From the NCBI RefSeq assembly GCF_000701465.1, contig NZ_JNIY01000009.1, positions 62,001 through 126,000 on the forward strand: a DNA stretch of 64,000 nt, in the 5' to 3' direction. The notes below the pieces were generated by a model. It made no database searches. It had not been told where the DNA came from and saw only the letters and a program-made list of their open reading frames with translations. Source of the DNA: Paraoerskovia marina DSM 21750 (GTDB lineage Bacteria > Actinomycetota > Actinomycetes > Actinomycetales > Cellulomonadaceae). Position numbers and translations under genes: made by a program. Positions 42,360-60,719 of this stretch are shown piece by piece (position 1 is the stretch's first letter; every line of letters begins with the position of its first letter).

Positions 42360-42690
42360 AACCGGAGCCGCGAACGTCTCGGGCAACGTGCTCGCGCCGG
42401 CCTCGTCTTGCGCCTGCTCGGCCTGGACGTTCCGCTACACCAGACCCTTGAGGCTCATGAGGACCTGGAATTCGCGAGGTTGGCCAGCGGCTTCGCCTTG
42501 AATTTGTCTTCGTAGAGGGCCATCGTCGGTGGCCCAGGCCTTGCCATTGAGGCTCCCTAGGAGCTGCATCGGACGTGCGACGTCGCCGCGCGACGGACCG
42601 CGTGGGTGCGCTGTCCGTCGCGCGCGAGCTTGGTGCAGGAGATATCTCCGAGTGCAGTCGGCGATGCACTGCTCGATTGCAGTCGTCGCA
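42360..42690 (-). pseudogene. remnant of a second abiEi-abiEii pair
   Basis: On the minus strand from 42690, ATTAIEQCIADCTRRYLLHQ matches the C-terminal part of the intact AbiEi at 59327-59896 (ATTAIEQCTAGGTPSYLLRQ), although the frame then decays. Further along, from about 42478, REFQVLMSLKGLV-stop-RNVQAEQ matches the AbiEii segment RRFQVFVSLKGQIWRKVQVEI, with TAG (42435-42437) at the tryptophan. The N-terminal half of the toxin is missing between the two. Similarity ends at the IS256 right terminus. This is the debris of another AbiE module, lying just outside the left attachment repeat. Confidence 0.7.
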
Positions 42691-42787
42691 CCGCTGACAC
42701 GAAGAAGCCCGGCTCAGCAGCATCGCTGCAGAGCCGGGCTTCTTGGTGAGACGCGCGAGCGTCGCCAGCGATCAGAGGTTAATCATC
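42683..42787. repeat. left direct repeat: copy of lpdA 3' end and terminator (att site)
   Basis: About 100 bp aligned without gaps to 60616-60719. It includes a terminator hairpin (AAGAAGCCCGGCTC...GAGCCGGGCTTCTT), then ACGCGCGAGCGTCGCCAG and GATCAGAGGTT. Read on the minus strand the edge spells codons ATGATTAACCTCTGA, the last four residues (MINL) and stop of lpdA. A further 20 bp beyond resemble the preceding lpdA codons in decayed form. It marks the left boundary of the BREX island. Confidence 0.85.
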
Positions 42788-42904
42788 TAGGCCGGAAGGC
42801 CTGGGGCCGTTGAAAATCCGCGTTCGCTCACGTTCACACCGAGGGCCGTGCTCCCTGCGTGCCCCACTCAAACCGGCGGAAGGACGTTGAAACTGACCGG
42901 ACAG

Positions 42905-43402
42905 TTAACGCGGGTCAATGAGTGTGGCCATCCAGTCGCCGAGTTCGACGGCTATGTCAGCGAGGTCGAGCGCCTTCCTACGGTTGACGGTCTCGCTACG
43001 ACCGTGGGCGATGCGGTTCCTTCGATCGACCATGTAGGCGAGCTCTCGACCGATCCGTGAATCGTCGTCTCCCAACAGGTGTTCAAGCTGCACAGCCCAG
43101 CCCTCATCGAAATTCCTCGTCCGCTCCACCAGAACCTCGGGCGCTGGGTTGCGTCCGCGAAACAAGCCATTGACTACGTGACGTGCAATGGCGGGATGGG
43201 ACTTGGCCTCGGCGAAGTGCTTGATGCAGGTCTCGAACGTGTTCTCGATATACCCCGCCGAGCGCACAACGAGAAAGCGTGCAAGCTCCGCCGCCACTTC
43301 GGGCGGCTCCGCCGGCAACTCGTCCAGCATCTTCCGCAGATTGACCAGGCGGGTCCGACTTGTGTCCATCTCCCGCGTCGGCCACGATCCGGGCCAACTC
43401 AT
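42905..43402 (-). CDS. HEPN-domain protein, MAE_28990-like, last gene of the BREX operon
   Basis: A 165-residue all-helical protein. The C-terminal half carries R128-N-R-I-A-H133, the Rx4H motif of HEPN ribonucleases, within YMVDRRNRIAHGRSE. The region VVRSAGYIENTFETCIKHFAE is also typical of the MAE_28990/MAE_18760 HEPN-like group, usually paired with a DUF262 protein. HEPN proteins often cut RNA in abortive defence; that activity is inferred here. Its start overlaps the DUF262 stop as ATGA; a later ATG (residue 12) is possible. The 117 bp beyond it before the att repeat hold no gene. Confidence 0.75.
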   Translation of the reverse strand: MSWPGSWPTREMDTSRTRLVNLRKMLDELPAEPPEVAAELARFLVVRSAGYIENTFETCIKHFAEAKSHPAIARHVVNGLFRGRNPAPEVLVERTRNFDEGWAVQLEHLLGDDDSRIGRELAYMVDRRNRIAHGRSETVNRRKALDLADIAVELGDWMATLIDPR

Positions 43403-44517
43403 GCTGCGTCTGCGAACGCCTCGGTTGCGAGGCGGAGACGCGTCGCCATCGGCTCCTCGTTCGCCGTCGCCCGACTGGTAGAAGCCTCGAAATCGTCACT
43501 GCCCTTGAGCCCGTCAATTGCGGCAGCAGCAGCCTCCGGCGTGATTTCAGACTGAGCGAGGTGCCGCATAAGGCCGACGTAGATTGCCTCTGCTTGTGCC
43601 GCGTTCACCTGCCTGGCACCCTTCCGCAACGCTTGCGGCCCAGGGCCAGCGAGGATAGTCGCGTTTGCTCGGGCGAACAGCTTTGAGGCTGCAATGACCT
43701 GCTCGGAGGTTGCATCACGGTGCATCCCGGCGAAGTCGTTGAGGAACTTCTTTAAAGGGCTGGCGTAGCGATCAGCGCCGCAGTACAGGGCGATTATTCG
43801 AAGAATCAATTCCTGATCACGAGCACGCGATGACTTACCGCCGTAGAGAGCGCGCCAGTTGGTGTCTTGGTTGAGCCGCTCGAGCAACTCGATCAACGGC
43901 CCCGCGTAGAGCGCTACGCGAATCTCGTGCGGGGTCAGTTGAGTACCGCCAGAGTTGAGACGCTCGAAGATCTGGTACACCGCCTCCAGACTCTGCGGGG
44001 TTCCGTCGGTGTCTACGATCGTCGCCTGGATGAACGCGTTGTCCAACGTGCGCCGCAGGTCATCGGGTAGGCTCTTGTAGGTCAGCCCCTCGAACCGCTT
44101 TGAGACGTTGGCCAGAGAGAAGACTCGCGACCCATGAGTCCCTTCGTAGAAATCTCGCAAAGTAAGCAGGCGCTGTTGCCCGTCGAGCACGAGATAGCGC
44201 CGGTCACTCTGGCGCACGAAGAACACGCCGGGTATCGGATAGCCCAAGAGCAGCGACTCGATAAATCTATCCATCTGGGACTTGCGCCAGACGAATCCTC
44301 GCTGGAATCCAGCGCTCTCGATGTCTGGATCGTTGTGGCCGAACTGCGGGACGACAATGTCTCGGTTGCGTACACGACGAACTAATCCCTCGACGTCGAA
44401 GTCCTGCCCCGCGTACTGCACAGATCGCGCTTCGGGCTCCGCCGCCGTCAGGTCGACGAACTCATCTTCAGTGAGCTCGGGGAATTCTGGTCTGTCGGCT
44501 GTCTGCTCTTCAGTCAT
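43399..44517 (-). CDS. DUF262 (GmrSD N-terminal-like) protein
   Basis: A 372-residue DUF262 protein. The diagnostic motif is LVLDGQQRLLTL (DGQQR at residues 112-116), preceded by FQRGFVWRKSQMDRFIESLL and followed by FERLNSGGTQLTPHEIR. DUF262 is a ParB/sulfiredoxin-like nucleotide-binding domain and the N-terminal half of GmrSD/BrxU type IV enzymes that hydrolyse NTP to cut modified DNA. The DUF1524 HNH nuclease that normally follows in GmrSD is not seen; instead a separate HEPN gene is coupled downstream. Its ATG overlaps the brxL stop (ATGA), so it is part of the BREX transcript. Confidence 0.85.
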   Translation of the reverse strand: MTEEQTADRPEFPELTEDEFVDLTAAEPEARSVQYAGQDFDVEGLVRRVRNRDIVVPQFGHNDPDIESAGFQRGFVWRKSQMDRFIESLLLGYPIPGVFFVRQSDRRYLVLDGQQRLLTLRDFYEGTHGSRVFSLANVSKRFEGLTYKSLPDDLRRTLDNAFIQATIVDTDGTPQSLEAVYQIFERLNSGGTQLTPHEIRVALYAGPLIELLERLNQDTNWRALYGGKSSRARDQELILRIIALYCGADRYASPLKKFLNDFAGMHRDATSEQVIAASKLFARANATILAGPGPQALRKGARQVNAAQAEAIYVGLMRHLAQSEITPEAAAAAIDGLKGSDDFEASTSRATANEEPMATRLRLATEAFADAA

Positions 44518-46724
44518 GCTCCTTGCCCTTCTGTTGCTTCGCGGGAGTCGGCAGACACCCTCACGTAGTGCACGGTGAACGATGAACCGATCAGGCGGAA
44601 CTCCTGGCGGTTGCGGCCGAAGTCGAAGGGGTTGTCGCTCGGCTTCTGCCAGATGTCGAGGCCCTTGCCGAGATCGATGCGCCAGCCATGATCGGTCTCG
44701 ATGCGGCGGTCATGGATGGTGTCATCGAGTCGTACGGCAAGTCGCACTCCCACGGCGTCGGAGGCGTCCTTGACGGCCTTCAGCATGATCAGGTGCCGCT
44801 GTTTGTACGCCGGGTTTGGTTCCTCCGCGGTGACGAGCTCGACATCGATCTCGTCAGCCGGGTCCTTCGCTGCGGCAAGAAGACTCAGCAGGTCGACGAG
44901 GTTGCGGCCCTGGTGCGGCATGCGAATGTAGGGGTCCGTGATCGCGATCCTCGATGCGCCGCGAAGGTACGGCAGGAGGAGGGTCTCGTAGGACACCCCC
45001 CGCTGGCCGGCGGTGAAGTCTCGATGCCCCTCGGCCAACGCTGAGGGCTCAGGCTTCCCGGTCGCTTCTGGTGCAGTCACCGAGGTTTCGGACGACGACG
45101 CAGCGACCGGGGCCGGAATCACCCCCGTGGCCGCACCTGGGCTTGCTTCGCCGTCACCCTCGGGCCCTGCGCCCCAGTCCCGCCGATACAGCTGCGGGTG
45201 CTGGCTCTCCTCAAGCGTCGCGACCTCGTACCACGCCCCCGACGTGTCGGAGTATCGGAAGCGAACCGGGGTTTCGCGCATGGTGGCGTCGATGCGCAGG
45301 ATTGAGTCCTTGACGCGCTTGCGCCCCTCGACCGCGAACTCCAGCAGCGTGCGGATCTCGTCCTCCGTGGCCTCACCCGTCGGGTGCACGAGCTTCATCA
45401 GCCCAGAGAAGGTCTTACGGATGCCGTCCTGGTCGCGCGTGGAGATCGAGTTGTCGAGAGTGAAGTGGTCCTTGTACTTGTCCGAGAAGTCCTCGGACCG
45501 CTTCGCCCGCAGGATCTCGGCGAGGTAGTCGACGACGAACCCGTAGCCGGCGGAGAACATCTCCGAGCGGATCGGCGCGACCTCCCAACCGGGGATGTAG
45601 TGGTGGACGCGGTCGAGCCACGCTGGGTCGCGGTAGGCGTCAGGCAGCTCGTCGAACAGGTCGGAGTTCTTGAGCATGTAGGGCACGGTGTGCGTCGTGT
45701 TGCCGATGAACGCCATCGACGCCTCGGCCCCGTAGATGCTCGTGCCGCGCGAGAACGACTTGTTCGCGAGGTAGTTCTTCATGACATTGACGAGGTTCTG
45801 GTCGGTGCGACGATTGGCGGCGAACTCGTCGAAGGCGACGCAGTCCCAGTAGCCGACCAGGCCGATTCGCCCGCTGGCGTTGTTGACGAACAGCTTGGCG
45901 ACGGTGACCTCTCCGCCGGAGACGAGGATGCCGTTCGGGGAGAACTCGCTGAAGGTGTGCGACTTGCCGGTGCCCTTGGGCCCGAGTTCGACGATGTTGT
46001 AGTTGCGCTCTACGAAGGGGATGAGACGCGTCAAGGCGATGAGCTTGCCGCGCTTGTTGAACTGCTCGGGGTTGAGGCCGATCGACTGCATGAGCAGGTC
46101 GATCCACTCCTCGGTCGTGAACGCCTTGCGTGCCTCGTAGTAGTGGTCGATGTCGATGCCAGCGACCTGGATGGGCTTGAGACTGCCGAGGATCCACGGT
46201 ACGACGCGCTGATCGTCAGAGTGGAAGTACTCGATGTCGCAGATGCACCAGACGCCGCCGACGAGAAGCTTGGGGTTCTGCTTGACCGTCACGTCATCGA
46301 TGACGACGCCGCTGACCTGGAGGTTCTCAAACTCAGCCTCATGGACGTCGTTCTTCTCATTGAGCGTGACGGTGACCTTGTCGATCACACGGTGGCGCCC
46401 CTTGCGACGGATCTCCGACTTCACGAGCATGTGCTCGTTGCGGTTGACGTAGTGGGTCGCGAGGATCTGCCGCACGCTGTCGATCCCGACCTGGATCGTG
46501 GCCTCGTCGTCGGATGCGGCGTACTGGCCCAACAGGTACTCCAGTACGTACGAGGGCACGACGGCGTTGCCGCGGACCGCTTTGACGAGGTCCTTGCGGA
46601 CGACGGCGCCGGCGAAGTGCTCGTTGATCTTGTCGTTGAGCGCAGACTTCGTCGGGGCGGCGTCGGTCGTCTCCGCGGCGGCGAGGAAGTCGATCTCGCC
46701 GAGGGCGTCTTCAAGGTTGGTCAT
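44514..46724 (-). CDS. brxL: BREX system AAA+ protein BrxL with MITD1-like C-terminal domain
   Basis: A 736-residue protein. Residues 1-510 match the BrxL N-terminal and AAA+ regions: Walker A GPKGTGKSHTF (248-258), acidic CVAFDEFA (296-303) and sensor-like FIGNTTHTVPYML. After an Ala/Ser/Pro linker (about 515-565), residues 575-722 have TDPYIRMPHQGRN, IDVELVTAEE and IHDRRIETDHGWRIDLGKGL, the pattern of the MITD1 C-terminal phospholipase-D-like domain. No Lon Ser-Lys protease site is recognisable. BrxL is a ring-forming DNA-binding component needed in type 1 and 4 BREX. It lies 7 bp after pglZ. Confidence 0.9.
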   Translation of the reverse strand: MTNLEDALGEIDFLAAAETTDAAPTKSALNDKINEHFAGAVVRKDLVKAVRGNAVVPSYVLEYLLGQYAASDDEATIQVGIDSVRQILATHYVNRNEHMLVKSEIRRKGRHRVIDKVTVTLNEKNDVHEAEFENLQVSGVVIDDVTVKQNPKLLVGGVWCICDIEYFHSDDQRVVPWILGSLKPIQVAGIDIDHYYEARKAFTTEEWIDLLMQSIGLNPEQFNKRGKLIALTRLIPFVERNYNIVELGPKGTGKSHTFSEFSPNGILVSGGEVTVAKLFVNNASGRIGLVGYWDCVAFDEFAANRRTDQNLVNVMKNYLANKSFSRGTSIYGAEASMAFIGNTTHTVPYMLKNSDLFDELPDAYRDPAWLDRVHHYIPGWEVAPIRSEMFSAGYGFVVDYLAEILRAKRSEDFSDKYKDHFTLDNSISTRDQDGIRKTFSGLMKLVHPTGEATEDEIRTLLEFAVEGRKRVKDSILRIDATMRETPVRFRYSDTSGAWYEVATLEESQHPQLYRRDWGAGPEGDGEASPGAATGVIPAPVAASSSETSVTAPEATGKPEPSALAEGHRDFTAGQRGVSYETLLLPYLRGASRIAITDPYIRMPHQGRNLVDLLSLLAAAKDPADEIDVELVTAEEPNPAYKQRHLIMLKAVKDASDAVGVRLAVRLDDTIHDRRIETDHGWRIDLGKGLDIWQKPSDNPFDFGRNRQEFRLIGSSFTVHYVRVSADSREATEGQGA

Positions 46725-46731
46725 GGCTGTC

Positions 46732-49224
46732 CTAGAAGTCGAAGTCCGTCGTGAACGACCGCTTGATGGTGTAGTTCCCCTTCGAGAACGACTTCCACTG
46801 CGTCGTGTTCGGGATCGGCTCTTCGAGCCGCAGCTCGACGGACCGGTTGTTGTACTGGTCGGCGTCCTGGGTCAGGTACAGCACGGCCTTCTGATAGCGG
46901 TCGCGCTGGTCATCGGATGCGCTGTCGAAGGTAAGGACGGGCTGGTCGGAGATCAGCGTGTCGCCGACGTAGAGGCCGAGCCGCACCTGGCGCGCCTGGA
47001 TCTTGTCGGTGACCGCCTCGCGCTGAAGTAGCTTGACGGCGAGCTGCCCGGTGGTGATCTTGTCGGTCTCGGGCATGAGGTCGACACCTACCGGTCGGAT
47101 GTCGCTCTTGCGCTTCTTGTTGACCGCGATCACCGGCACGACTATCTCCTGGAGCGAAGCGCCACCGTGCACGTAGCGGGTGCCAGGGCCGGGTAGCGGG
47201 ATGCGGTGGATCGACTTGGGGATCTGGATGTCGATGTCTCCCGCGAGCCCTGCCTGGGCGGAGGTGAACGTCATGAAGGAGGGCGACGGCTTCAGCGACC
47301 GGCCGAGCACGAAGCGGCGGTTGGTCTTGGTGACCGCGTCACCATGCGGGCTCTCCGAGAGGTAGTAGGCCTGCTCCAGCGGAGTGTCTTGGAATTGGAA
47401 CCCGTGGTCGGCGGTGATGAGGATGTTCGTCGCGTTGGCGTTGGTCCACTTCTTCACCAGGAGCAGCAGCTCGCGAAGGGTCTCCTCGGCAGCCTCGAAG
47501 ACGGTCCGCTCGGTCGGGGCCTTGTCGCCCGCGGCGTCGATCCGGTCGTGATAGACGTAGAAGACCTGGTGCTTCGTGTACAGCTCGCGAAGTTCGCTCC
47601 CCGGCATGGCCAGCACCTCGGCCGCGCTCATGGCATGCCCCTTGACCGCTTGCAGGATCTTGCCGCGGTTCGCGGTGCCGTTCGTCGGCTTCCCGTCCGC
47701 GAGCACCGGGAGGCCGTCCGGGTCGAGTTCCAAGCTGGAGTGCGGCAGCAGCGACGCCATGCCAAGTTGGGTGTAGCTCGGCAGCGAGCCGAGCACAGCG
47801 GAGAGCGAGGCATCGAAGCGGTCCTCGCCGCGGATCATCGACGCGAGTTGCTCGGCGATCTCATACCGCATGCCGTCGGAGATGATCACGACCACCTTGG
47901 TGCGACCGTCCTTGACGACGGGGGCGACGTGACGGTCGAAGAACCTCGCCTGCGGCGCGAGCGTCTCAGACTTCCACTCGCTCATGGGTTCAAGGGCCTG
48001 CTGCCAGAGCCCGCCGAAGTCGTAGAGGTACTTGTTGGTGTACTGCTTGTCGACCTCGGCCTTTAGCGCTTCGAGCGGCTTGTGGAAGTCGGCGGTCTGG
48101 TGCGCGTACGTGAACCAGCGGTAGTGCTGGTCGATGCGGAACCAGTCCGACTGGTACTTTTCCAACCCAACCGTGGCTGAGGCGATGGCGTGCGGCAACG
48201 CAGCGAGAGCCGCGAGCAGCTCCGAGGCGCTCTGGATCGCGTCGTAGAGCTTGGCGTACTTGGCGCTCCACAGGCTGTGCTGACGCTGCCGAACGATGTC
48301 CGCGACCTCACGGGGCGTCACCGACTGGGTGGTGACGGCGGCAGCTAGGTCGACGATGACCTTGCGGTCGACCTCCTCGAAGATCGTGCTCTTGGCCAGT
48401 TCGCGGTAGTCGCGCTGGTCGATCTTCGAGTTCACGTCGAGCGCGTCGGCCGCACGGGACGCGAGGGTCGTCATCACGTACTGCGTGCGCACGTCGTAGC
48501 GCAGGGCGTTGAAGTCACTGCGGATGTTGCGGAACTCGTCGGGCGCGTCCGAGGCGAAGTCTTCGATGGCGCGGCCGAACATCCACAGCACGAAGTCGTC
48601 CATGGTCGGGGTCGCGCTCGGGTAACTGTAGATGCTGGCGAGCCCGTCCCAGAAGAACTGGTCGAGGCCGAAGGCGACGAGGTCGTCGAACTTGGCGCTC
48701 TTCCCGGCGGCATTCTCGACGAGGAGTTCGCGGACGATGTCGGTCAGCTTGTTCCCTGAAGCCTTGACGAGCACCTGGCACATCTTGGCGCGAAGGCGTG
48801 CGGCGTCGTCTCCGTCGGTGAGGAGCTTCTCCAGCGCCTGCTTGCGGCTGTTCGCGGCAAAGAACTTCTGGTGCCGCTCGATGACCGGCAGCAGGGCTGA
48901 GTCGTTGAGGCCAAGCTCCTGTTGCAACATCGAGGTCTTGTCGGCTGTGAAGACGCCGTACGCGAGTTCGAGGTCGAGCAGCCAGTTTCCGGTGCCGCGC
49001 GAGACGTCGCCGGCTCGGTAGACGAGGTGCTTGTTGACGTGGTCGGCGATGATCGTGTTCTTTGCGCCGAGCTCGTTGCCCTTAACGCGGATGACGTTGA
49101 CCGCGCCAAGGTCGAGCGCGTCGAGGTCGGCGGCGTACTCACCAGTGGGGTCATTCCAAAACACGACACGCTCGGACGCCAGACGGCCTCGGAGCGCCTC
49201 CTGGACGGCGGTCAGATCAGTCAC
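46732..49224 (-). CDS. pglZ: BREX-1 system phosphatase PglZ
   Basis: An 830-residue type 1 PglZ. The N-terminal part begins TDLTAVQEALRGRLASERVV with FWNDPTGEY. The alkaline-phosphatase-fold domain has VVVIISDGMRYEIAEQL (residues 444-460) with the metal-binding Asp, and ILITADHGFQF later supplies His/Asp ligands. PglZ is thought to be a nuclease/phosphatase-like partner of PglX in BREX. The GTG at 49224 is chosen because it begins the conserved sequence and overlaps the pglX stop by 8 bp; the open frame extends 24 codons further. Confidence 0.92.
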   Translation of the reverse strand: MTDLTAVQEALRGRLASERVVFWNDPTGEYAADLDALDLGAVNVIRVKGNELGAKNTIIADHVNKHLVYRAGDVSRGTGNWLLDLELAYGVFTADKTSMLQQELGLNDSALLPVIERHQKFFAANSRKQALEKLLTDGDDAARLRAKMCQVLVKASGNKLTDIVRELLVENAAGKSAKFDDLVAFGLDQFFWDGLASIYSYPSATPTMDDFVLWMFGRAIEDFASDAPDEFRNIRSDFNALRYDVRTQYVMTTLASRAADALDVNSKIDQRDYRELAKSTIFEEVDRKVIVDLAAAVTTQSVTPREVADIVRQRQHSLWSAKYAKLYDAIQSASELLAALAALPHAIASATVGLEKYQSDWFRIDQHYRWFTYAHQTADFHKPLEALKAEVDKQYTNKYLYDFGGLWQQALEPMSEWKSETLAPQARFFDRHVAPVVKDGRTKVVVIISDGMRYEIAEQLASMIRGEDRFDASLSAVLGSLPSYTQLGMASLLPHSSLELDPDGLPVLADGKPTNGTANRGKILQAVKGHAMSAAEVLAMPGSELRELYTKHQVFYVYHDRIDAAGDKAPTERTVFEAAEETLRELLLLVKKWTNANATNILITADHGFQFQDTPLEQAYYLSESPHGDAVTKTNRRFVLGRSLKPSPSFMTFTSAQAGLAGDIDIQIPKSIHRIPLPGPGTRYVHGGASLQEIVVPVIAVNKKRKSDIRPVGVDLMPETDKITTGQLAVKLLQREAVTDKIQARQVRLGLYVGDTLISDQPVLTFDSASDDQRDRYQKAVLYLTQDADQYNNRSVELRLEEPIPNTTQWKSFSKGNYTIKRSFTTDFDF

Positions 49225-52200
49225 TGGCCGCCTCCAAACCCGGAACCTTCTTGAGGGCAGCACCGAACTTCGGGTAGTTCGCTTTGACCCCGTCACCGAG
49301 TGCGATCGCCACGTTCTCGGACGCCTTAGGGTAGAGGATATCGTGCTCGTACCCCTTCAACTCGAGGAGTACCTTGCGGAGCCGGTCCGCTTCTTTGGCG
49401 TTCCCCACACGCTCAACTTGCTGCAGGGTCGACTCCAACTTGGTCACGTACTCACGCAGGTAGGACAGGACCGTCGAGACCGTCGTCGGCGAGTACCGAT
49501 GCATGTATACCAGCGCGCTAAAAGAACCGCTCGGGCTGGAAAACAACCAGTAGATCGGGCGCCGCCTATACCGCTGGACGTGGTCCTTGTAGAAGGACTT
49601 CACGAAGTAGGTGCGCAGGTTCTTCACTCCGAGCGACTCAGTCACGAACCGCAGGTTGGCCTCAAAGTACTCGTCGCCAAACGCTGCGCGGAGGAACTGC
49701 CGGAATCGATCGACGATGTCATCCTCGAACCAGTCACCGTCGACAACGGGGATGACGTTGTCAGCGTCCGGCACGAAGCTTGGCGTCGGAACCTTTTGAA
49801 GGTATTCCTGCAATGTCATCCCCTGATCCGCGACGATCAGACCGGGTTCATCGAGGCTGTACCGGCCGAACATGCAGCCAACTGCGACGGACACAAGCTC
49901 AGATGCCAACGATGCTGCTGAGGGTGTGTCAAGAGTTACCTCGTCGACGTGCACCTCTTCCTGAGCTTCACCATCCAAGCGGAAGAGTGCATTGAACTCC
50001 GCGTTGTTGGCAGTCTCAGCCGCGGCCATCGCTTTAATGTCCTGAGCTACCTGATCAACCACCGCCTGGGCGCCGGCCGCAACGGCGCCCGAAGCTGCCC
50101 TCGTGGCAGCAAGAACGTCCAATTCACGGAATCCTATCGCAGTCTCACGACGCTCCCAGTTTCGCCTCGCGATCTCGATGCAGTGTTCAGCACGCCTGGC
50201 TACTCTCAATCTCTCCGTGGGATTGCGCCATGGCAGCACCGAGACGTACCCCGTATTGGCGTGCATTCCTGGGGCCACGGCTTTGATGTAGAGGTCAGCC
50301 ACCGACGAGTTGAGGTAGGCAAGAAACGTGAGGAGGTCGTCATAATCGTCGCTAGGGCTGAAAAGGCTCATCGATACAACATCAAACATGGTGCCGGTAT
50401 CACGCAGTCGTGCGCCAAGAACGGGCTGTCCGATATCAGACCACTCTACTGCTGGCCGTCCGTAGTACCTCTGATTCTGTGGACGAGCCCGCAATTTGCC
50501 CGCAGCATCACGGTTGCTCTTGATGTCTGCGCCGTCCTGCGCCCAATCAACGACCATTTCCATGTTGCCAAACCACTTGCGGAACGGGCCGCCCTTGCTA
50601 TACGGCAACCACCGAGCCTCGTCACTGTCAGACCGACTCATCTGTGTGGTCGCGTAGGAGACCTCCCACCAATAGCGGAGAAAGCGGTCATTGTCACCAG
50701 TTTGCAGACCGACGCGAGCATCAGCTACGGAGGAAATGGGGTCATCGTGGCTGAGATGGTGAGCCTGCTTTGGAGTAAGCCAGTATGCGATCACCGAATT
50801 CGGGAAGGACTTGAACTCGGAGGATGCGATCCGCGAAAGCAGCCCCGTCTCCCGCGCCCGCCGAAACTCGCGTGACATTGCGGATTCCCCGTGTTCCTCC
50901 ATTCGGTGGAATGCGCCGACGGTCGAGCGCAAACCCCCGCGAGAGGTAATGAATGCGCACGTGTTAACGACCTCTCCGCCGAATGAATCGAAGGCACCCG
51001 TGCCGAGTCCAATCATTGCGACGAGCGTGCTTGTTTCGAGCAGTGAGGAACGGAACTTGCCGAAGGTTGTCTGGAATGTCCAGGACTGCATCGTGATCAT
51101 CGCAACGAAGCCGCGTGGAACCAGTTCGTGACAGCGCTCGATGAAAGCGGAGTATAGGTCCGACTTTGCCTCCGGGAACCTACGAGCGATGTACTCAGCC
51201 AGGGGTCCGCCCATGTTCTTGCTGCCCATGTACGGAGGATTCGCGATCGCGACTGCATACTTAGGCGTCAAGTAGGATGCTTGGCGAACTACTCGGTTGG
51301 CTCGTGCAACAATGTCCGATTGCAGGAGATCGTCGCCGGCGCCGAGTACTCCAAGGTGCCGTGCAAGCCGGTCCGCCTGCCCCGTTGGCGGATTGACCAA
51401 GGACCCGCAGGTGTCTGCCTTAGAAAACAGGTTCCAGAACGCTTCTTCTGCACCACGGTCCCCACCGAGGCTGAGAAGGAAGTCCAGTTCGTCAGCGCTG
51501 AATGAAACTGGCTCGATCACGCAGACGTGCGGCTCGACCGCGTCCTTCAAGAAGCGCTTGCGCCTCGAGGTGGCCTTCATCGTCAAAGCGAAGGCAGCCA
51601 GCGCACCGGCGCGCGGGTCGATCTCGGTGCCATAGAGGTTGTTCGTGAGGATGAGGCTAGGGATCTCGGACGGCGTGTATCCCTCCTCCTCATAGATCGC
51701 GTACAGGAGGTCGAAGGCGTACGTGAGCATGTGGCCCGACCCGCACGCCGGGTCGATCACGTTCAGCTCCTCTGGCGTGGAGATCTCCAGAATATCGGGC
51801 TCCTCGTCGACCGGAGCGATGTAGTAGTCCATCTGGTCGACGAGCCGGGACTCGGGGTGGTTGAGCATCCACAGTCGACCGAGGGAGTTCTCAACGAGGT
51901 ATCGGACGATCCAGTGTGGGGTGAACAATTGTGTGGCGGCGGGGATCTCATCGGCGCCGGCCTTCTTGTTCTTCTTGAACCCGGCGAACACCTCGTCTTT
52001 CCGCTCCGAAATGTAGAACTGGTAAAGCCAGCCAATGACCTCGACGTCCTGGCACACTTCTTCAGAGAGCACCTTGACGGACCGGCTGAGGGCGGACTCC
52101 TCGGCGAGCAGGTTCGCGGGGATTAGCAGTTCCGTGTAGCCACCCTCGCGCTCGAACATGAACGGCATCGCCTGGTTCCAGTAGCGACAGTAATCCGCGA

Positions 52201-52651
52201 GCAGCAGCGCGTATGCCTCGGTCTGGGCATCGCCCCCCGATCGCGGGGGCCGGGTGCCGTCCAGTAGCCCCGTGATGATGGCCACGTTCGCGCCCCTCAC
52301 CACATCGCCATCGATCTGGCCGCGCTTGGCCGAGGCGAGCACCTCGGGCTGGCCGACTTGATCTGCGGCCGGCGAAACAACTCCGAGGTCGGTGTAGCCG
52401 TTGGCGTCCATGAAGCGTAGGGCGATGATTCGGTTGAACCAGATGTAGGCGACCTTGTCGGTCACATAAGCCTTGCCTGAGAAATCACCGCCCTGGGCGG
52501 CGATAGCCCGCTCCAGCGCGGTCACAGCGCGGGGCTGCTCAACACGCTCAGGCGAGCCCGGTGCAAGAACTGCAGCAATGCGCGCACCAACCTCACGGAT
52601 TAGCTCCGTACGCGCCGAGATGGCGAAAGACTTCAGCGGTGCGGTATCCAT
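49217..52651 (-). CDS. pglX: BREX-1 system adenine-specific DNA methyltransferase PglX
   Basis: A 1144-residue N6-adenine methyltransferase. Motif I is DPACGSGHML (residues 300-309) and motif IV is NPPY (471-474). TQLFTPHWIVRYLVENSLGR before motif I is typical of PglX. The long C-terminal half holds the specificity and partner-binding region. PglX methylates host BREX sites so that self DNA is spared. The site recognised here is unknown. The frame is intact, with no internal stop or homopolymer switch noticed. Its ATG overlaps the brxC stop by one base (TGATG). Confidence 0.93.
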   Translation of the reverse strand: MDTAPLKSFAISARTELIREVGARIAAVLAPGSPERVEQPRAVTALERAIAAQGGDFSGKAYVTDKVAYIWFNRIIALRFMDANGYTDLGVVSPAADQVGQPEVLASAKRGQIDGDVVRGANVAIITGLLDGTRPPRSGGDAQTEAYALLLADYCRYWNQAMPFMFEREGGYTELLIPANLLAEESALSRSVKVLSEEVCQDVEVIGWLYQFYISERKDEVFAGFKKNKKAGADEIPAATQLFTPHWIVRYLVENSLGRLWMLNHPESRLVDQMDYYIAPVDEEPDILEISTPEELNVIDPACGSGHMLTYAFDLLYAIYEEEGYTPSEIPSLILTNNLYGTEIDPRAGALAAFALTMKATSRRKRFLKDAVEPHVCVIEPVSFSADELDFLLSLGGDRGAEEAFWNLFSKADTCGSLVNPPTGQADRLARHLGVLGAGDDLLQSDIVARANRVVRQASYLTPKYAVAIANPPYMGSKNMGGPLAEYIARRFPEAKSDLYSAFIERCHELVPRGFVAMITMQSWTFQTTFGKFRSSLLETSTLVAMIGLGTGAFDSFGGEVVNTCAFITSRGGLRSTVGAFHRMEEHGESAMSREFRRARETGLLSRIASSEFKSFPNSVIAYWLTPKQAHHLSHDDPISSVADARVGLQTGDNDRFLRYWWEVSYATTQMSRSDSDEARWLPYSKGGPFRKWFGNMEMVVDWAQDGADIKSNRDAAGKLRARPQNQRYYGRPAVEWSDIGQPVLGARLRDTGTMFDVVSMSLFSPSDDYDDLLTFLAYLNSSVADLYIKAVAPGMHANTGYVSVLPWRNPTERLRVARRAEHCIEIARRNWERRETAIGFRELDVLAATRAASGAVAAGAQAVVDQVAQDIKAMAAAETANNAEFNALFRLDGEAQEEVHVDEVTLDTPSAASLASELVSVAVGCMFGRYSLDEPGLIVADQGMTLQEYLQKVPTPSFVPDADNVIPVVDGDWFEDDIVDRFRQFLRAAFGDEYFEANLRFVTESLGVKNLRTYFVKSFYKDHVQRYRRRPIYWLFSSPSGSFSALVYMHRYSPTTVSTVLSYLREYVTKLESTLQQVERVGNAKEADRLRKVLLELKGYEHDILYPKASENVAIALGDGVKANYPKFGAALKKVPGLEAASD

Positions 52652-55600
52652 CAGAGCGTGATTCGCTTTCCATCGTTTAGGGTCTCGACGAGCGCGGCGC
52701 GGTACGTGGCAAGGTAGGTGTCAACGTCGGCTTCCGATTCAATGACACCCGACGCGCCAGGCACGTTGATCGACTTTATCGAGACCACGGGCTTCGGCGG
52801 CTGGCTGTCGTTGGCCCCCCGCTGCTGCGACTCGACTAGTTGGCTTAGCAGAGAGGGGTAGCCATCGTGTTCGAAGCTCGCTCCCACCTGGAGAATGAGC
52901 GGCGCTTGAATCTCGCCTTCAAGTCGTTCAAGAATGCGATCGACGTACTCGAGCACGCTAGCCCGCGTGTCAGGAGTGGCGTCGGCGTAGTAGGCACTTC
53001 CGAGGATCTCGGTCTTGCGGCCCTCGATCGCCGCGGACACGTCCGCGCGCTTGTTGGCGACAATGTTTTCAATCTGACCGCGCAAGCTGTCCGCGGCGGC
53101 TTTGAGCTGATTCATCTTGTTGCCACGGAAGGCATTGGGGTCAGTGAGCAGCGACGTAACTGTGTCGGCGCTTCCTACGGGGAGGTAGGCGATGTTTTCG
53201 GCGTTTTTGCTCAGGACGGTCTGCGCTTCATCAAAGATTCTGGCCTGCTGGCCGTTGACGAATGACTTGACGGGGTCGATCAGGTCTTCCTTGGCCTCAA
53301 GCAACTCATCAGCCTTATCGAACTCGCTCAGGTACCAGTCAGGCTGCTTGCCCACGGCCTCGTCGAGCAGCGCGACTACATCGGACAACTGGACGACAAA
53401 CGGGTACCGACTGCTACTTACGAGGCCTGCGAGCTCTTCACGCCTAGCCCTGAGCTTGTCTTTGCCGAACTGGGCAAGTTCGGCGGGGTCGTTCGGCACG
53501 GCGCCCTCGTCGAAGAAGTCTGTGCAGAACTTTTTGAACGCAGCGACTTTGACTTGGTTGTATGTCTTCTGCGGTGCGACAATAACGTATTGGTGCTTGC
53601 CCGTATTGCGGATCAGGTTTGCTGCCTCGGTGCGGGTGACCGCGTTGGAATCGACGTTCAGCGCCACCTTGCCCTGGCCGACGAGCCACCCGAGCACGAC
53701 TTCGATGGAACCGAGATCCCAACCGTAGGGCTTGGTCTCGAAGTGTTCGACAATCTTCTTGATCGTCACTTGCTCGCCCAGTCCCGTCTGAGTGATGATC
53801 CTGGCCTCCATCTCCGTGCCAGGTGAGTTCAGCGTGCTCAAGATCGCCGTGTCAACTAGACCTTGTTCGCTTCTCACGACACTCGCGACCTGCTGCTCCG
53901 AGAACACCTTTCCGCCGAGTAGGCCGAGGTTCGTGTAGGTACGGCTCACGAGCTCCTGAAACCCGTCGGCGACGCGCCCAATGGCGTCTTGCGAGCCGGA
54001 GGCAACCTCGGCAGCGTTGATGATCAGCTGTGCCTTGCCGACAGCCTGACGGAGACGCTCGATCATCTCCTTCTCGCGGTCGGCGTTGAGCACCTGCTTG
54101 GACTGAAGAATGGCCTGCATCGAGGCTGTAGCGCCAGAGTTGGTGCGTTGCTTCGTGTACTTCTCTGTCTTGAGCAGCAGGCGCAGGTCGGCGAGCAACC
54201 GCTTGTCACGACCGAGGAATACGCGCAGCTCGTCTCGGCCCATGCTCTGCGCCTTGATCTCGGCGTCGGTGTAACTGGTCTCGGAGGTGATGAAGTGGAT
54301 GGTCAAATCGCGCTGGTTCCCCTGCACGGTGTCGTCGAGTTTATAGCCGAACGCGAAGTCCTGGCCATTCTTTACGTACTTGAGTTTGTTGGTCTTGAGG
54401 ATGTCGGATGATAGGTACCGGAAGAGCTTGTTGGAGACCTCGGAGGAGTCGATGTCGACCGCCTTGATCTCCTTTTCGATCTCCTGCTCCTCGTTGGTGA
54501 GGTACTCGTAAACGTTGCCGTTGCGCTGGACGTACGACTGCGTCTCCAGCAGGTTGAGCGCCTCCTGCACCTGCTTGCCCAACCCGGTGAGGTCGAGGCC
54601 AAAGCGGTCGTAGACGAGCACGGTGAGGTTGCGTGGCGTGGCCTTGAAGGTGTCGACGTACTTGACCAGGAAGAGCGCCTTCAGGAGGCGATTGGCGAGG
54701 ACTGTAATGTCCGAGCCGTTGTCGGGGAGGTGCTTCTCGGCCTGGAGGATGGCACTCTGCGCCGCCGACTTCAGGGCAGCGCTGATGCCCGAGAACATCT
54801 GGTCGAACGTAGCCAGGTAGCCCACCTGCTCGCCGCCGATCCGCTTGGCGACCTCCTGAACCACGCCTAGCATGGAGCGCTCGCCTACCGAGCTGTTCTT
54901 GCCCTCGAACATGTTGTGGTCGGACAGGCCTTCGATCGCGGCCTGGAACATCGGGATCTGGTAGGTGACGAAGGGGTAGGTATTGATGAAGCGGCCTTCG
55001 TCCACGTAGTTGCGGTAAGTCTTCGCACCGTCGACGAAGTTAAAGATTGTCGGGAAGTTCGCCGCCTGCGTGGAGTGGATCGTCTTGAGCACGCCGGCGC
55101 CCGCATCATTCTTCTCCAGCAGACGCTTGCTGATGACCTCTTCGACGTCCTGGCTGGTTAACTTCACCTTGGCACTGAAACGAGCCTGGATCTTGGAGAA
55201 GTCATTGCCCTGCTGTCGCGTGCGGTCGCCGATGACCTTGTCCATGTCCTCCTGCGAGGTGACGAAAACCCACGAGCGTCCCTCGCTCTTGGTGTTGAGG
55301 GACTCGGCAATCGTCTGGAGGTTAAGCATCAGTTTGACGTCGTCGGCGATGAACTGGCCGACCTCGTCGACGAAGAAGTTGAGACGGAAGCCGGGCTCCT
55401 GCTTGTCGATCCATGCCTTGACAGACGTGGCGAAGTCTTCGATCGAGACCGCATAGGACTTCTGGTACTGGGCGATGATGCCGGGGTTCGCCTCGCCGTT
55501 GACCTGGGCGAACGCCCTGTCGATGTTGTGGCCCTCCAGCGCGGTCTGCTCGCGACCCTGGGACCAATCGATGCCGGCGTGCCTGGCGAATGCCTCCTTG

Positions 55601-56133
55601 AAGGACTCGTACTGGCCGCGCTTGTCGAGGTCCTCCTCGAAGCGGGCGACCGCGCCGTCGTTGCCGAAGTAGCCACGGCTCTCATCGAACACCTTGACGA
55701 ACACCTTGAGCAGGGCGTCAGTCTGGTCCTTGGCAATCAGGGTCGCCTTCTGGTCGATGTTGAACAGCAGGCTCTTGGCCGGGATCGCGGCTGCTTTCTT
55801 CAGCGACGCGACCAGGAACGCGTCGCTGGTTTTGCCGAGGAAGCTCTCGCTCACCTTCTCGCGCGGGAACGCTTGGCCCTCGACGTCGCCGAGTAGGTGG
55901 GCGAGCATCTTAAGCAGGTGGGACTTGCCAGAGCCGAAGAATCCCGAGATCCACACGCCGTTGGCGTTGGTGTAATTCGTGTACTCCTCCAGCAGCGGCG
56001 CGACACCCTTCGCGGCGTCATTGGTAAAGACGTACTCCTCGACCTCGGTGCCCACGTGGTCGACGTCGTCGGCCTTGACGACGCCCTCGATCGAGCGGGC
56101 GACGTCTTTGAGGAAGATCTCGTTGAGTTTCAT
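52651..56133 (-). CDS. brxC: BREX system P-loop protein BrxC
   Basis: A 1160-residue ATPase. Walker A is GFFGSGKSH (residues 64-72) within VWISGFFGSGKSHLLKMLAH, and Walker B-like FFVDEVGQFIADD lies near residue 265. The remainder is largely helical with several possible coiled coils. BrxC/PglY is an essential BREX ATPase of unclear mechanism, probably assembling with BrxB, PglX and PglZ. It is 4 bp after brxB and overlaps pglX by one base. No frame damage is seen. Confidence 0.93.
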   Translation of the reverse strand: MKLNEIFLKDVARSIEGVVKADDVDHVGTEVEEYVFTNDAAKGVAPLLEEYTNYTNANGVWISGFFGSGKSHLLKMLAHLLGDVEGQAFPREKVSESFLGKTSDAFLVASLKKAAAIPAKSLLFNIDQKATLIAKDQTDALLKVFVKVFDESRGYFGNDGAVARFEEDLDKRGQYESFKEAFARHAGIDWSQGREQTALEGHNIDRAFAQVNGEANPGIIAQYQKSYAVSIEDFATSVKAWIDKQEPGFRLNFFVDEVGQFIADDVKLMLNLQTIAESLNTKSEGRSWVFVTSQEDMDKVIGDRTRQQGNDFSKIQARFSAKVKLTSQDVEEVISKRLLEKNDAGAGVLKTIHSTQAANFPTIFNFVDGAKTYRNYVDEGRFINTYPFVTYQIPMFQAAIEGLSDHNMFEGKNSSVGERSMLGVVQEVAKRIGGEQVGYLATFDQMFSGISAALKSAAQSAILQAEKHLPDNGSDITVLANRLLKALFLVKYVDTFKATPRNLTVLVYDRFGLDLTGLGKQVQEALNLLETQSYVQRNGNVYEYLTNEEQEIEKEIKAVDIDSSEVSNKLFRYLSSDILKTNKLKYVKNGQDFAFGYKLDDTVQGNQRDLTIHFITSETSYTDAEIKAQSMGRDELRVFLGRDKRLLADLRLLLKTEKYTKQRTNSGATASMQAILQSKQVLNADREKEMIERLRQAVGKAQLIINAAEVASGSQDAIGRVADGFQELVSRTYTNLGLLGGKVFSEQQVASVVRSEQGLVDTAILSTLNSPGTEMEARIITQTGLGEQVTIKKIVEHFETKPYGWDLGSIEVVLGWLVGQGKVALNVDSNAVTRTEAANLIRNTGKHQYVIVAPQKTYNQVKVAAFKKFCTDFFDEGAVPNDPAELAQFGKDKLRARREELAGLVSSSRYPFVVQLSDVVALLDEAVGKQPDWYLSEFDKADELLEAKEDLIDPVKSFVNGQQARIFDEAQTVLSKNAENIAYLPVGSADTVTSLLTDPNAFRGNKMNQLKAAADSLRGQIENIVANKRADVSAAIEGRKTEILGSAYYADATPDTRASVLEYVDRILERLEGEIQAPLILQVGASFEHDGYPSLLSQLVESQQRGANDSQPPKPVVSIKSINVPGASGVIESEADVDTYLATYRAALVETLNDGKRITL

Positions 56134-56137
56134 CGGG

Positions 56138-56749
56138 TCATGCTTCCTGGTCGAGGATGCGCTTCGCGCGGTAAAATGAGTCGTCTTTGAGTTGGCCGAA
56201 TAGCACGAGCGCCGAGCCCTGCGTGGCCGACACCTCGTACCGTCCCGGGAAGAACATCAGCATCGGCGTGTCCGATACGGCGGTCTGCAGGTTGTTCAGC
56301 ACCGTGTGTGAACGCACAAACGGGAACACCTCGCCGACACCGGTGAGGAAGAGGATCTGGAAGGATTTGCCTGCGGTGCGTTCCTTGATGGCCGGGGCCA
56401 GGTGCATCTGCGGGTCGAGCATGTTCTGGAGCATCTTGAGGAAGTCGGGCTTGTCCATCGTCGGCTCGGCGGCGAGAACCCGTTCCCAGACATTGCGTGC
56501 CTTGAGCAGTTCGATACACAGGTCGTAGAGGTTGATCTCGACGACCTTGATGCCCAGCTCGGTGTCGAGCTTGGTCTTGATGCGCTTCTTCGCCTGGGCG
56601 ACGTCGAGTGCCCATGCAGGATCGTAGTCGTAGATGAAGTGAGCGACCTCGTTGCCGAGGCCCTCCATCTTCAGGAAGCGCTCGCTGCTGAGCACGTTGA
56701 ACAGGTGCGCTTCTTGCTGAGCCAGCGTGGGCTTGGGGTGCAGGGGCAT
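56138..56749 (-). CDS. brxB: BREX-1 system protein BrxB (DUF1788)
   Basis: A 203-residue DUF1788 protein. Recognisable blocks are FIYDYDPAWALDVAQAKKRI, KVVEINLYDLCIELL and ILFLTGVGEVFPFVRSHTVL followed by PMLMFFPGRY. BrxB is a small conserved BREX subunit thought to bridge PglZ and BrxC. The ATG at 56749 overlaps the brxA stop (TGATG). A larger open frame upstream is brxA read out of frame and is not used. Confidence 0.9.
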   Translation of the reverse strand: MPLHPKPTLAQQEAHLFNVLSSERFLKMEGLGNEVAHFIYDYDPAWALDVAQAKKRIKTKLDTELGIKVVEINLYDLCIELLKARNVWERVLAAEPTMDKPDFLKMLQNMLDPQMHLAPAIKERTAGKSFQILFLTGVGEVFPFVRSHTVLNNLQTAVSDTPMLMFFPGRYEVSATQGSALVLFGQLKDDSFYRAKRILDQEA

Positions 56750-57348
56750 CAGACCCCCCTCGTCGGGAAAAAGCGGATGTCGCTCGGCGTGCGCTCCGTG
56801 AGGTACTCGGCGACGCGGGCGGAGATGAGGGCGGGCTCGATTGCGCCCTTGGCCGTCAGCAGACCTGCCTCGACCATCATCCTGAAGAGCACCTGCCTGA
56901 GCTTCTTGTAGGTGGCGGCCGACGTGGCGTCGAGTTCGTCGTGCCACATCGCCTTGGCGCGGTAGAACGAGTCGTAGTCCGCGTAGGAGACCGTGCCCGC
57001 CAGGGTGAGGAACCTCTCGCGGAGGACTTCCTCGGCGAACTCCCCGATGAAGTCGTATCGACGGCAGGCGGCAGCCCACATCAAGTGACCGCGTTCCGTA
57101 GTGGTGACATCGGTGAGGATCTCAACCTCGCGATCCGTGAGTGCCGACATCCGCTTGACCGTCTCGCGTACGCGGCGGACGCCCGTGCTGCGGGTTCGAC
57201 TCTGAAGGAGATTCTGGGCGACGGCGACGTCACGGACGTTCGCCCAGTCGCGATGCTCGATGTGCACAGGGGCCAAAACCGCGGCCTCCTGCTCGAGCAG
57301 GCCGCCGGTCGTGAACGACAGCGCGTAGCGCTCACAACGATCGTTCAT
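56749..57348 (-). CDS. brxA: BREX-1 system protein BrxA (DUF1819)
   Basis: A 199-residue DUF1819 protein from the ATG at 57348. It contains RYALSFTTGGLLEQEAAVLA, LLQSRTRSTGVRRVRET and the C-terminal DIRFFP typical of the family. BrxA is a small DNA-binding type BREX subunit. An in-frame GTG at 57420 overlaps the original stop of the HTH gene (GTGA), so a 24-codon longer start coupled to that gene is possible; family similarity favours 57348. First of the six core BREX genes. Confidence 0.88.
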   Translation of the reverse strand: MNDRCERYALSFTTGGLLEQEAAVLAPVHIEHRDWANVRDVAVAQNLLQSRTRSTGVRRVRETVKRMSALTDREVEILTDVTTTERGHLMWAAACRRYDFIGEFAEEVLRERFLTLAGTVSYADYDSFYRAKAMWHDELDATSAATYKKLRQVLFRMMVEAGLLTAKGAIEPALISARVAEYLTERTPSDIRFFPTRGV

Positions 57349-57617: not shown

Positions 57618-57662
57618 GGTCGATCACCCACCTACTCGGTACTGGAAAACTAGGACGGCGCA

Positions 57663-57692: not shown

Positions 57693-57949
57693 TGGTTTGA
57701 CTGGGTCTGATCGGCGAGAGCCGGATGTATCACCTCCGACGCGGCGAGGTCCCGGCAGACAAGCATGTCAGGCGGTTAGGGCGCCGAGCTACACGGGCGG
57801 CAGAGGTGCATCACAGCCTTTGGTGACGGCGGTCTTGGCGTCGACCTTTGCAGAACATCGCCCCGGCGGCAGTGGCCCTTGGGCTTCGATTCCGGCCCGG
57901 CCGAGTTGGACAGTGAGCGGACTGGAGCTCGATATGGGCCCGCCGTTGA

Positions 57950-58278: not shown

Positions 58279-58385
58279 CGGAGTCTCCCTCGGTGACAGT
58301 GATGGCCAGCGGTGGTCGCTGGTCACCAAGCACATCGCCGTGGAGACGCGATTGCCCGCGCCGATACCGGCGTGGGCCGCTTCGC

Positions 58386-59327
58386 CTACTTTGTGCTTTC
58401 GATCTGGACGATCCACTCGTTGACCGTCGCGACCGCCTCGTCCAGCGACATCGACAGCCCGGCGTCGTGGGCCGCCGCCGCGTAGTCGCGCACCCAGTGG
58501 TCGTGAGGGCTCATCAGCGGCGGCCATGAGCGCTCAGGGCGGCCGAGTTCCCGGGCATCCTGAGCGCGCGCTTCGCAGACGGCGACTGCTGCCGTACGGA
58601 TGTCGTTCAGGGTCGGTTGTCCCTCCGCCTCGATCAGCGACCGCAGCAGCACGAGGTCGACGACGTCGCGAGGGCGGTCGTTGATACTCGTCGGGGGATC
58701 ATGGGGGTCCGAGGCCGCGTGGATCTTCTGTGCGACCTGGAACCGCATCGCGATCGTGACGAGGGTGTCCGGCGTAGGCAGGCCGAAGGGTTCGAGGCGA
58801 GGCGCAGGAATCGTCTCCGGCGTGGCACCCGCGCCACCCTCGTCCGGCGCGATCTCGACCTGGACCTTGCGCCAGATCTGACCCTTGAGGCTGACGAACA
58901 CCTGGAAGCGCCGGGGCTGGATGACTCGGGTCGGCGTCTGGATGACCTCGACCTCCGACCGAGTGAGGGTCAGCGGGCCTCATTGCTCGGCGAAAGCGTC
59001 GTCGAGCGCGATGATGAAGTCGTCGATGTCACCGCGCACGAGTCCGTCGAGGTCGCTGGTGGCGCGTGCTGTATTGCCGAGCCGATGCTGAAGGTACGTC
59101 CCACCCTTGAGCAGGAAGCGGGGCGTGCCGCCGTCGCTCGCGCGTTGGAGCGCGGCGATCACGACGGTAGAGGCTACGAGCCACCCCATGCGTCCACCGG
59201 CTGCAGGCACGTCGAGCGCCTTCTCCGCGTGGGTGACCCACTGCGCCAGGATCGACGCGCTGGCCGGCGGCTTCGCCTTGGGCTTGAGGTCGGCGAGCGT
59301 CTTCTCGGCCGGACGAGACTCGGCCAT
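58386..59327 (-). pseudogene. abiEii: AbiEii-type nucleotidyltransferase toxin, interrupted by TGA
   Basis: The frame from 59327 to 58386 (314 codons) encodes an AbiEii/AbiGii nucleotidyltransferase. The active-site part FLLKGGTYLQHRLGNTARAT then SDLDGLVRGDID is present. An in-frame TGA at 58980-58982 (codon 116) follows FAEQ, where relatives have Trp before GPLTL. After it the same frame resumes with GPLTLTRSEVEVIQTPTR, FVSLKGQIWRKVQVEI and an intact C-terminal half. A single TGG-to-TGA change would explain it. AbiEii toxins transfer nucleotides to targets such as tRNA. The start overlaps the antitoxin stop (TGATG). Confidence 0.85.
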
Positions 59328-59896
59328 CAGCGATCCTCCAGAAGTTGGGTCAGGCGGGCGACGTCGTCGCGACGGACCGCGCTGGTCCGCTCTCCGCGTT
59401 CGATGGCTTGGCGCAGCAGGTAGCTCGGCGTGCCGCCGGCGGTGCACTGTTCGATCGCTGTCGTCGCGGTGACGATACGCATGAGGTTCCACCAACCGAG
59501 CTGATCTGGCTTCAGCTCGTCGACGTGGACGACGAAAGCGTCGTTGTCGGACCGCCTGATGCGCCGCGCCGTGGGAACGGTGACGTGGTACCGCGCAGGG
59601 TTGATGTCGCTGATCTCGTGGAGCGCGAGGGCCGTCTCGTGGCTCAACGCAGCGTCCGGGTCGCCGGTGCGGAGCAGCGCGACCTGGAACTGTTCGTGCT
59701 CGATGCCCGGCAGGTACGGGACGCGGTAGATCCCACGAGCCACCGGGAGCAGCCCGCCGTGGGCAACGAGATTGTCGACCGCTCCCGCCGTGAGGTCCAG
59801 ATCATGAATGGCCTGCTGGCGGGTGACGAGGCCGTTCTGACCCTCCGCGAGGGCGCGCAAGGCATCTCTCGCGAGAGTTCCACCTGGACCCGGCAT
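59327..59896 (-). CDS. abiEi: AbiEi-type antitoxin
   Basis: A 189-residue AbiEi-family antitoxin. The N-terminal winged helix is DALRALAEGQNGLVTRQQAI followed by VARGIYRVPYLP. The C-terminal domain has ALSHETALALHEISDINPAR and TTAIEQCTAGGTPSYLLRQA. AbiEi represses its own operon and neutralises AbiEii. The gene is intact although its toxin partner is broken. It starts at ATG 59896 and overlaps abiEii by one base. Confidence 0.88.
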   Translation of the reverse strand: MPGPGGTLARDALRALAEGQNGLVTRQQAIHDLDLTAGAVDNLVAHGGLLPVARGIYRVPYLPGIEHEQFQVALLRTGDPDAALSHETALALHEISDINPARYHVTVPTARRIRRSDNDAFVVHVDELKPDQLGWWNLMRIVTATTAIEQCTAGGTPSYLLRQAIERGERTSAVRRDDVARLTQLLEDR

Positions 59897-59924
59897 GTCA
59901 AAAACCTATCACTAGTGATCCACT

Positions 59925-60489
59925 TTTGACTGCCATGTATTGCTCGCCGTGTCGCATCAGCTCGGCGAGCGTCGCGCCCTCGTGAGGAGATCGCGTGAGT
60001 CCCGTGTGCTGCAGGTCGTGAAACCGGTCGCCCTCTGTCAAGCCGTCGACTGCCTTGCGGCGATCGCCCCATACCGAGTTCCAGCGCGACGCTGACGTGT
60101 GTTCCTTGCCTTTCGCGCTTGTCAGGACAATGGCTGACTTCGCACGCGCGCAGACCCGCTCGCCGAGGTGCTCCCGCAGCCGATCGAACCTCAGCGGCGG
60201 CACCGCCATCGAGCGCAGGTCCGTCTCCGACTTCGGGGCGGTGGGCCCACCCGCGGACCCGTTCTTCTGGCGGCGCACGAAGATCGTCGCCGCGGTGGGG
60301 TCGGTGTTCCACGCAATGTCCCGGCGCTGGAGCCCGAGCACCTCGACCGGGGCCGGGGGAGTCGTCCTCGGTGCGCGCTGCGTAGAGATTGCCGTCCGGT
60401 GCGGGGTACCTCGCCTGCCACCGCGTTGATGGGAGCTTGCGCAGTCGGCCCCACGCCTCGCGGCGACTCTTCGCCGTCGTCGTCTCCGC
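59925..60489 (-). pseudogene. tyrosine-type integrase, internally deleted and frameshifted
   Basis: From about 60489, AETTTAKSRREAWGRLRKLP and STRWQARYPAPDGNLYAA form the N-terminal arm-binding part of a tyrosine recombinase. The core-binding domain is missing. In another frame, EVLGLQRRDIAWN and later RFHDLQHTG-like DRFHDLQHTGLTRSPHEGAT, then LAELMRHGEQ, give the catalytic box with HxLRH changed to HDLQH and the GHxS region lost. The catalytic Tyr is not found. It lies beside the right att repeat, the usual position of an integrase gene. Confidence 0.75.
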
Positions 60490-60615
60490 CAGAGCCGTCC
60501 CCTCCTCTGGACCCTTCCCAACGCGTTCCGGCGGTGGCGCACGAAGCTCACGACACTCGGGTTCGTGCCCCCTGCGCGCCCTCGGAATGAACCTTCTGGT
60601 CCCGCGCGGGCGAGC

Positions 60616-60719
60616 TCGTCGCACGGCCGACACCAAGAAGCCCGGCTCAGCAGCGATGCTGCTGAGCCGGGCTTCTTTCTGCGACGCGCGAGCGTCGCCA
60701 GTGATCAGAGGTTGATCAT
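60616..60719. repeat. right direct repeat: lpdA 3' end and terminator (att site)
   Basis: About 100 bp matching 42683-42787. It contains the lpdA stop codon (60705-60707), the block GACGCGCGAGCGTCGCCAG (60682-60700), and the terminator. This copy keeps lpdA intact, as when an element integrates at a gene's 3' end and restores it. Confidence 0.85.
60635..60677 (-). terminator. lpdA terminator
   Basis: A perfect 20-bp stem (AAGAAGCCCGGCTCAGCAGC and its complement) with loop GAT lies 28 bp beyond the lpdA stop. The left repeat carries a slightly degraded copy (42700-42744). Confidence 0.85.

Follow-up and report, generated by a model that had tools for sequence, protein, structure and literature searches.

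The 64,000-nucleotide stretch of Paraoerskovia marina DSM 21750 analysed here (the window) holds the end of lpdA, a dihydrolipoamide dehydrogenase gene, twice and in the same orientation, with a set of anti-phage genes in between. This leads us to question how the second copy arose, and whether the 3' end of this gene serves as an attachment site for mobile elements. The answer we favour, with a probability of roughly 93%, is that a BREX element was integrated by tyrosine-integrase recombination at the 3' end of lpdA, onto an older element of the same family, and has since lost its integrase. The coordinates of all features are collected in Table 1.

Table 1. Positions in the window of the lpdA-site island, its borders and the older element beside it.
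Feature	Position	Strand	Basis
Older element: 440-aa gene (gene 39332)	39332..40654	-	
Older element: IS256/Mutator-type transposase, two frames	40954..42244	-	
Older element: truncated pieces of AbiEi/AbiEii, adjoining the left repeat	42375..42689	-	
Left copy of the 104-bp repeat	42683..42786	+	BLAST, hairpin folding
Distal core copy (TAGATGATTAACCTCTGA), inner boundary to the older element	42772..42789	-	
Putative integrase arm site GGCACGCAGGGAGCACG, far end of the element	42847..42863	-	sequence motif
HEPN-domain gene	42905..43402	-	
DUF262/GmrSD_N-type gene	43399..44517	-	
brxL	44514..46724	-	
pglZ (BREX-1 type A)	46732..49215	-	NCBIfam
pglX (BREX-1 adenine methyltransferase)	49217..52651	-	NCBIfam
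brxC	52651..56133	-	
brxB	56138..56716	-	
brxA (internal ATG taken as start)	56749..57348	-	
abiEii (toxin-like), in-frame stop at 58980-58982	58386..59327	-	
abiEi (antitoxin-like)	59327..59896	-	
Integrase remnant, catalytic-domain piece (~residues 255-387 of the G017 homologue)	59946..60344	-	
Integrase remnant, N-terminal piece (~residues 5-48 of the G017 homologue)	60355..60486	-	
Putative integrase arm site GGCGCGCAGGGGGCACG, integrase side	60564..60580	-	sequence motif
Right copy of the 104-bp repeat (lpdA end and terminator arm)	60616..60719	+	BLAST, hairpin folding
Proximal core (CACATGATCAACCTCTGA): restored target end, made up of the final five lpdA codons and the stop	60705..60722	-	
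lpdA, target gene	60705..62129	-	

The direct repeats described in the sequence-only reading are real: BLAST aligns the two copies with 92/104 identities (E 7e-34), and in each the end of lpdA is accompanied by the ACGCGCGAGCGTCGCCAG block and by a hairpin that folds strongly (MFE of -60.9 and -50.7 kcal/mol, with z of -8.6 and -7.0, for the two copies). When the right copy is compared without gaps to every position of the window, on either strand, it scores 92 at the left copy and no more than 60 at any other place; across the 2.95-Mb assembly (11 contigs) it finds a single diverged second copy, all other matches being to the two hairpins on the reverse strand. The site common to both borders comprises the last five codons and the stop of lpdA (CACATGATCAACYTCTGA), so that the end of the target gene is present at either side, as in islands at gene 3' ends; the distal core differs from the proximal one at 3 of 18 positions, a point that counts against integration.

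Just inside each core lies an element-end motif, GGCACGCAGGGGGCACG, which occurs exactly twice in the window where 0.07 occurrences are expected, an expectation that is not blind because this 17-mer was picked after viewing the window's own ends; for a degenerate form, fitted to the window, the expectation is 0.72. A looser pattern, GGCACG-N5-GGCACG with two mismatches, gave 19 + 14 matches in the window, was uninformative and was replaced by the 17-mer. The exact 17-mer is also present in the integrase-side arms of three further genomes (G017, G500, G449) and at the far ends of the elements in Antribacter and in the congener G003. Across genomes, the distal cores share a common text just inside, including GGCACGCAGGGGGCACG or near variants some 70-85 bp off, while on the integrase side the motif lies ~140-175 bp from the core; in addition, distal repeat copies in other genomes begin at the identical base of the core. 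Conserved motifs inside both ends are thus candidate arm-type integrase sites, and taken together cores and end motifs indicate that the unit is bordered by the two cores, which lie ~17.9 kb from each other.

Reading leftwards from lpdA along the minus strand, the cargo consists of a broken integrase, abiEi, abiEii, brxA-brxB-brxC-pglX-pglZ-brxL, a DUF262-type gene and a HEPN gene. The complete BREX operon and the AbiE pair reported earlier are therefore both in place. All six genes of a BREX type 1 set lie in a single operon, the type assignment resting on the NCBIfam PglX and PglZ models, and the operon is predicted to be active. The C-terminal part of BrxL contains an MIT_C (phospholipase D-like) domain, which falls inside the 698-residue PADLOC BrxL model and hence marks a known variant. 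The AbiE pair is not intact, owing to the in-frame stop in abiEii; the abiEii homologue of G449, a genome of another genus, is one uninterrupted frame. The frame at 57792-58322, initially taken for a xis-like gene, has no Pfam or NCBIfam match, and that assignment stays unconfirmed. GC content is ~59-64% across most of the island, against 67-75% outside.

The presumed integrase remnants also proved to be what they seemed. Two pieces of a tyrosine integrase, split over two frames (59946-60486), adjoin the lpdA-side border, and by comparison with the 436-residue homologue of G017 they lack ~206 internal residues as well as the C-terminal end that carries the catalytic tyrosine. The island is consequently unable to move by itself, a matter of autonomous mobility that has no bearing on its status as an integrated island. 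The remnant is closest to members of the lpdA clade of integrases, its pieces being 88.6% and 78.2% identical to one of them (L179).

Related integrases at the 3' end of lpdA, which the sequence-only reading had suggested looking for, were indeed found in other genera. An integrase of this clade, or its remnant, occurs in 19 of the 222 genomes of the family, and in 15 of the 19 it sits directly at lpdA behind CACATGATCAAC. These 15 genomes represent seven genera, including that of the window, and an integrase fragment directly behind lpdA in Cellulosimicrobium arenosum brings the number to about eight. In other genera, intact members are located ~200 bp downstream of lpdA; the integrase is found directly behind the gene in G017, in four Promicromonospora genomes and, with one in-frame stop, in Isoptericola variabilis. 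Second copies of the core occur at a distance in several of these genomes: 10.8 kb away in G017, in a 186-bp repeat of 89% identity followed by a scrap of an integrase C-terminus, 46 kb away with an integrase remnant behind it in G003, and 54 kb away in P. iranensis, while Antribacter soli has four cores. Integrases of 33-44% identity sit elsewhere, several of them adjoining tRNA-Ser genes.

These occurrences bear on one alternative, a duplication of the lpdA end and its terminator without any integrase. Similarly shaped hairpins after lpdA in many integrase-free genera could be cited for it, but other genera show this layout together with intact integrases, and this, the shared end motifs and the common starting base of the distal copies make it the least credible of all the explanations.

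Comparison with congeners shows what the locus looks like when unoccupied. The nearest named relative, Paraoerskovia sediminicola, has an lpdA 92% identical to that of the window. In the congener G001 a DUF3817 gene follows the lpdA stop immediately, which represents an empty site, and in G002 the same two points are 1.94 kb apart, the interval being filled by AbiE and a terminator, with the breakpoint at the lpdA stop. The empty site is thus observed at the level of congeners and not within the same species, and of the DUF3817 gene that neighbours lpdA in both congeners the P. marina genome contains only a weak paralogue elsewhere. An empty site in which a single terminator copy follows lpdA had been predicted; it was not found among the congeners G001, G002 and G003, G001 having the lpdA end alone. 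G001 has no terminator block, and the hairpin of G002 and G003 is a different one. Because the 104-bp repeat is not shared with G001, and the terminator differs in G002 and G003, the common core amounts to only ~18 bp. On comparison of these sequences we regard ~18 bp as the probable functional core and the bulk of the repeat as probably an arm brought by the element, although the terminator of this lineage could conceivably be of host origin.

Synteny with G001 and G002 ends at or just past a tRNA-Ala gene (33412-33486), and one could propose that the element entered there, with lpdA merely a far neighbour. The tRNA gene lies 9 kb outside the repeats, the intervening 33.5-39.3 kb contain genes of iron-uptake type and not element genes, and the cores and end motifs are at lpdA; on the core and repeat scans we do not favour the tRNA as the entry point, an explanation that is very improbable, if marginally less so than the duplication.

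What lies between those iron-uptake genes and the left repeat changes the view of the left border. A second, diverged AbiEi/AbiEii fragment, overlooked in the first reading, adjoins the outer side of the left repeat, its two parts (42375-42470 and 42481-42689) sharing 74% and 72% identity with the AbiE inside the island. Further out are a transposase and gene 39332, which at the nucleotide level is 83% identical to a gene that G003 has next to AbiE remnants in its own lpdA-site element. There an integrase scrap comes first, then the AbiE remnants, then the gene 39332 orthologue, an order matching the outer stretch of the window, which is accordingly best read as the leftover of an older element, although no outer edge of it was found. 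The left repeat, formerly regarded as the fec-side outer edge of the island, is then an inner boundary, and the locus is best described as a tandem array of the island and a decayed older element of the same kind. The outer AbiEi ends at TCGTCGC, a string also present at the start of the repeat, and if the sequence between these short matches had been deleted, the absence of an integrase from the older element would be accounted for.

The AbiE end of the island also has a close counterpart outside Paraoerskovia. Identity between the window and the lpdA-site element of G449 is 92.6% for AbiE and 86% for the integrase remnant, as compared with 82% for lpdA itself, and this excess suggests that transfer between genera took place recently. 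A search of phage records for integrases above 60% identity found none, the best reaching 39%.

The same observations can be turned to another account, in which an element was resident at lpdA first and BREX was swapped in later, through homologous recombination between related elements and not through the integrase. The homology of the inner and outer AbiE fragments would suit such an exchange, as would the G449 element, which has the same integrase-AbiE end at lpdA without BREX. Cores and arm motifs on both sides of the island fit one integrated element, however, and we hold this account to be unlikely, even though it is the strongest of the alternatives and an exchange of cargo before or after integration is compatible with them.

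Integration onto an older element, the reading we prefer, would have proceeded as follows. A tyrosine integrase would recombine the attachment site of the element with the last codons of lpdA, rebuilding the end of the gene and bringing along a terminator-bearing arm. Where the target was already occupied by an older element of the same family, as was probably the case here, the outcome would be a tandem array, and the 104-bp repeat would represent the arm and core common to both elements. Later loss of the middle of the integrase and of its catalytic tyrosine would leave the island fixed, unless a related integrase were to act in trans.

The likely role of such an arrangement is to lodge anti-phage systems just past an essential gene, where they do no harm. 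Defence models were run on three hand-picked elements at other lpdA sites, which illustrate the cargo and yield no estimate of its frequency: that of G003 (L104, L105, L198) has a BREX type 2-like set (PglW, PglX, BrxC/PglY, PglZ, BrxH) and ZacABC, that of G017 a CBASS set (cyclase, E1-E2, JAB), and that of P. iranensis a type IIG-like enzyme alongside a Wadjet set (JetA, JetB and JetD being the components tested). G003 and P. marina, which belong to the same genus, thus have different BREX types at their lpdA sites.

A sister clade of integrases, 53-57% identical to the reference of the lpdA clade, is found behind the 3' end of nrdF (L110, L183, L184, L186, L187, L162), each of the two clades forming a single branch (support 100/99). 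The layout is that seen at lpdA, namely stop codon, hairpin, GGCACG repeats and integrase; the target differs, being the gene for the beta-subunit of ribonucleotide reductase, as we read the 326-aa protein, which ends in DDDWDF, in the light of class I enzymes. We would tentatively suggest, at somewhat less than even odds, that the lpdA and nrdF clades form a lineage whose targets are the 3' ends of metabolic genes that are essential, and whose attachment arm includes a terminator, so that each insertion renews both the target end and the terminator, and successive insertions build defence arrays whose older copies lose their integrase and decay.

Integration into coding genes is not in itself exceptional. 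Among 1.76 million mapped islands, 43.4% lie in coding sequences and 33.8% in tRNA or tmRNA genes (PMC12424338), so that a coding-gene site as such is ordinary, and the view that the lpdA end is an uncommon site needs to be narrowed: it does not hold for coding genes in aggregate, but does apply to lpdA itself, since our searches of the open-access literature returned no report of lpdA, or of a dihydrolipoamide or dihydrolipoyl dehydrogenase gene, as an integration site. This is therefore a known kind of element with an apparently unreported target. Its nearest described parallel is the dusA-targeting islands (PMC4482086), which likewise have an integrase family tied to one coding-gene site, imperfect direct repeats as attL and attR, element sequence replacing the end of the target gene, and very varied cargo. 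They differ in using the 5' end of their target, while the elements described here use the 3' end of lpdA, have a terminator arm and occur in actinobacteria; excision has been demonstrated for the dusA islands (PMC4482086). Islands at guaA (PMC12016501) and, in the case of SGI1, at trmE (PMC8409611) likewise occupy the 3' end of a coding gene with a housekeeping role, and differ in target gene, host group and cargo; tandem integration is mentioned for SGI1 (PMC2297512). As at the defence hotspots of E. coli (PMC10121019) and P. aeruginosa (PMC10250203), varying anti-phage systems occupy one chromosomal position; unlike these species-level hotspots, the lpdA position is tied to one integrase clade over several genera.

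An 18-bp address at the end of a core gene makes it possible to locate integrated elements family-wide, several of them with complete anti-phage systems, and the intact relatives are candidate tools for site-specific integration in actinobacteria. Tandem arrays constitute a layered record of the order in which elements arrived, and the nrdF clade offers a natural experiment on how an integrase switches its target gene.

Three minor observations concern individual genomes. In P. umidemergens (L151), two integrase C-terminal scraps (G314 C15:49755-50006, 52141-52347) lie 22-25 kb behind the intact integrase, with no core detected, and are likely more decayed tandem elements. In Antribacter soli a distant tyrosine integrase (L163:7979-9268, 26% identical) closes the stretch beside lpdA, the lpdA terminator recurring at a distal core, and is perhaps a second integrase type at this site. 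Finally, two Promicromonospora genomes have an integrase and core at the end of a 637-aa gene (L200:19267, L202:18484), on a contig other than that of lpdA, which is probably a secondary attachment site.
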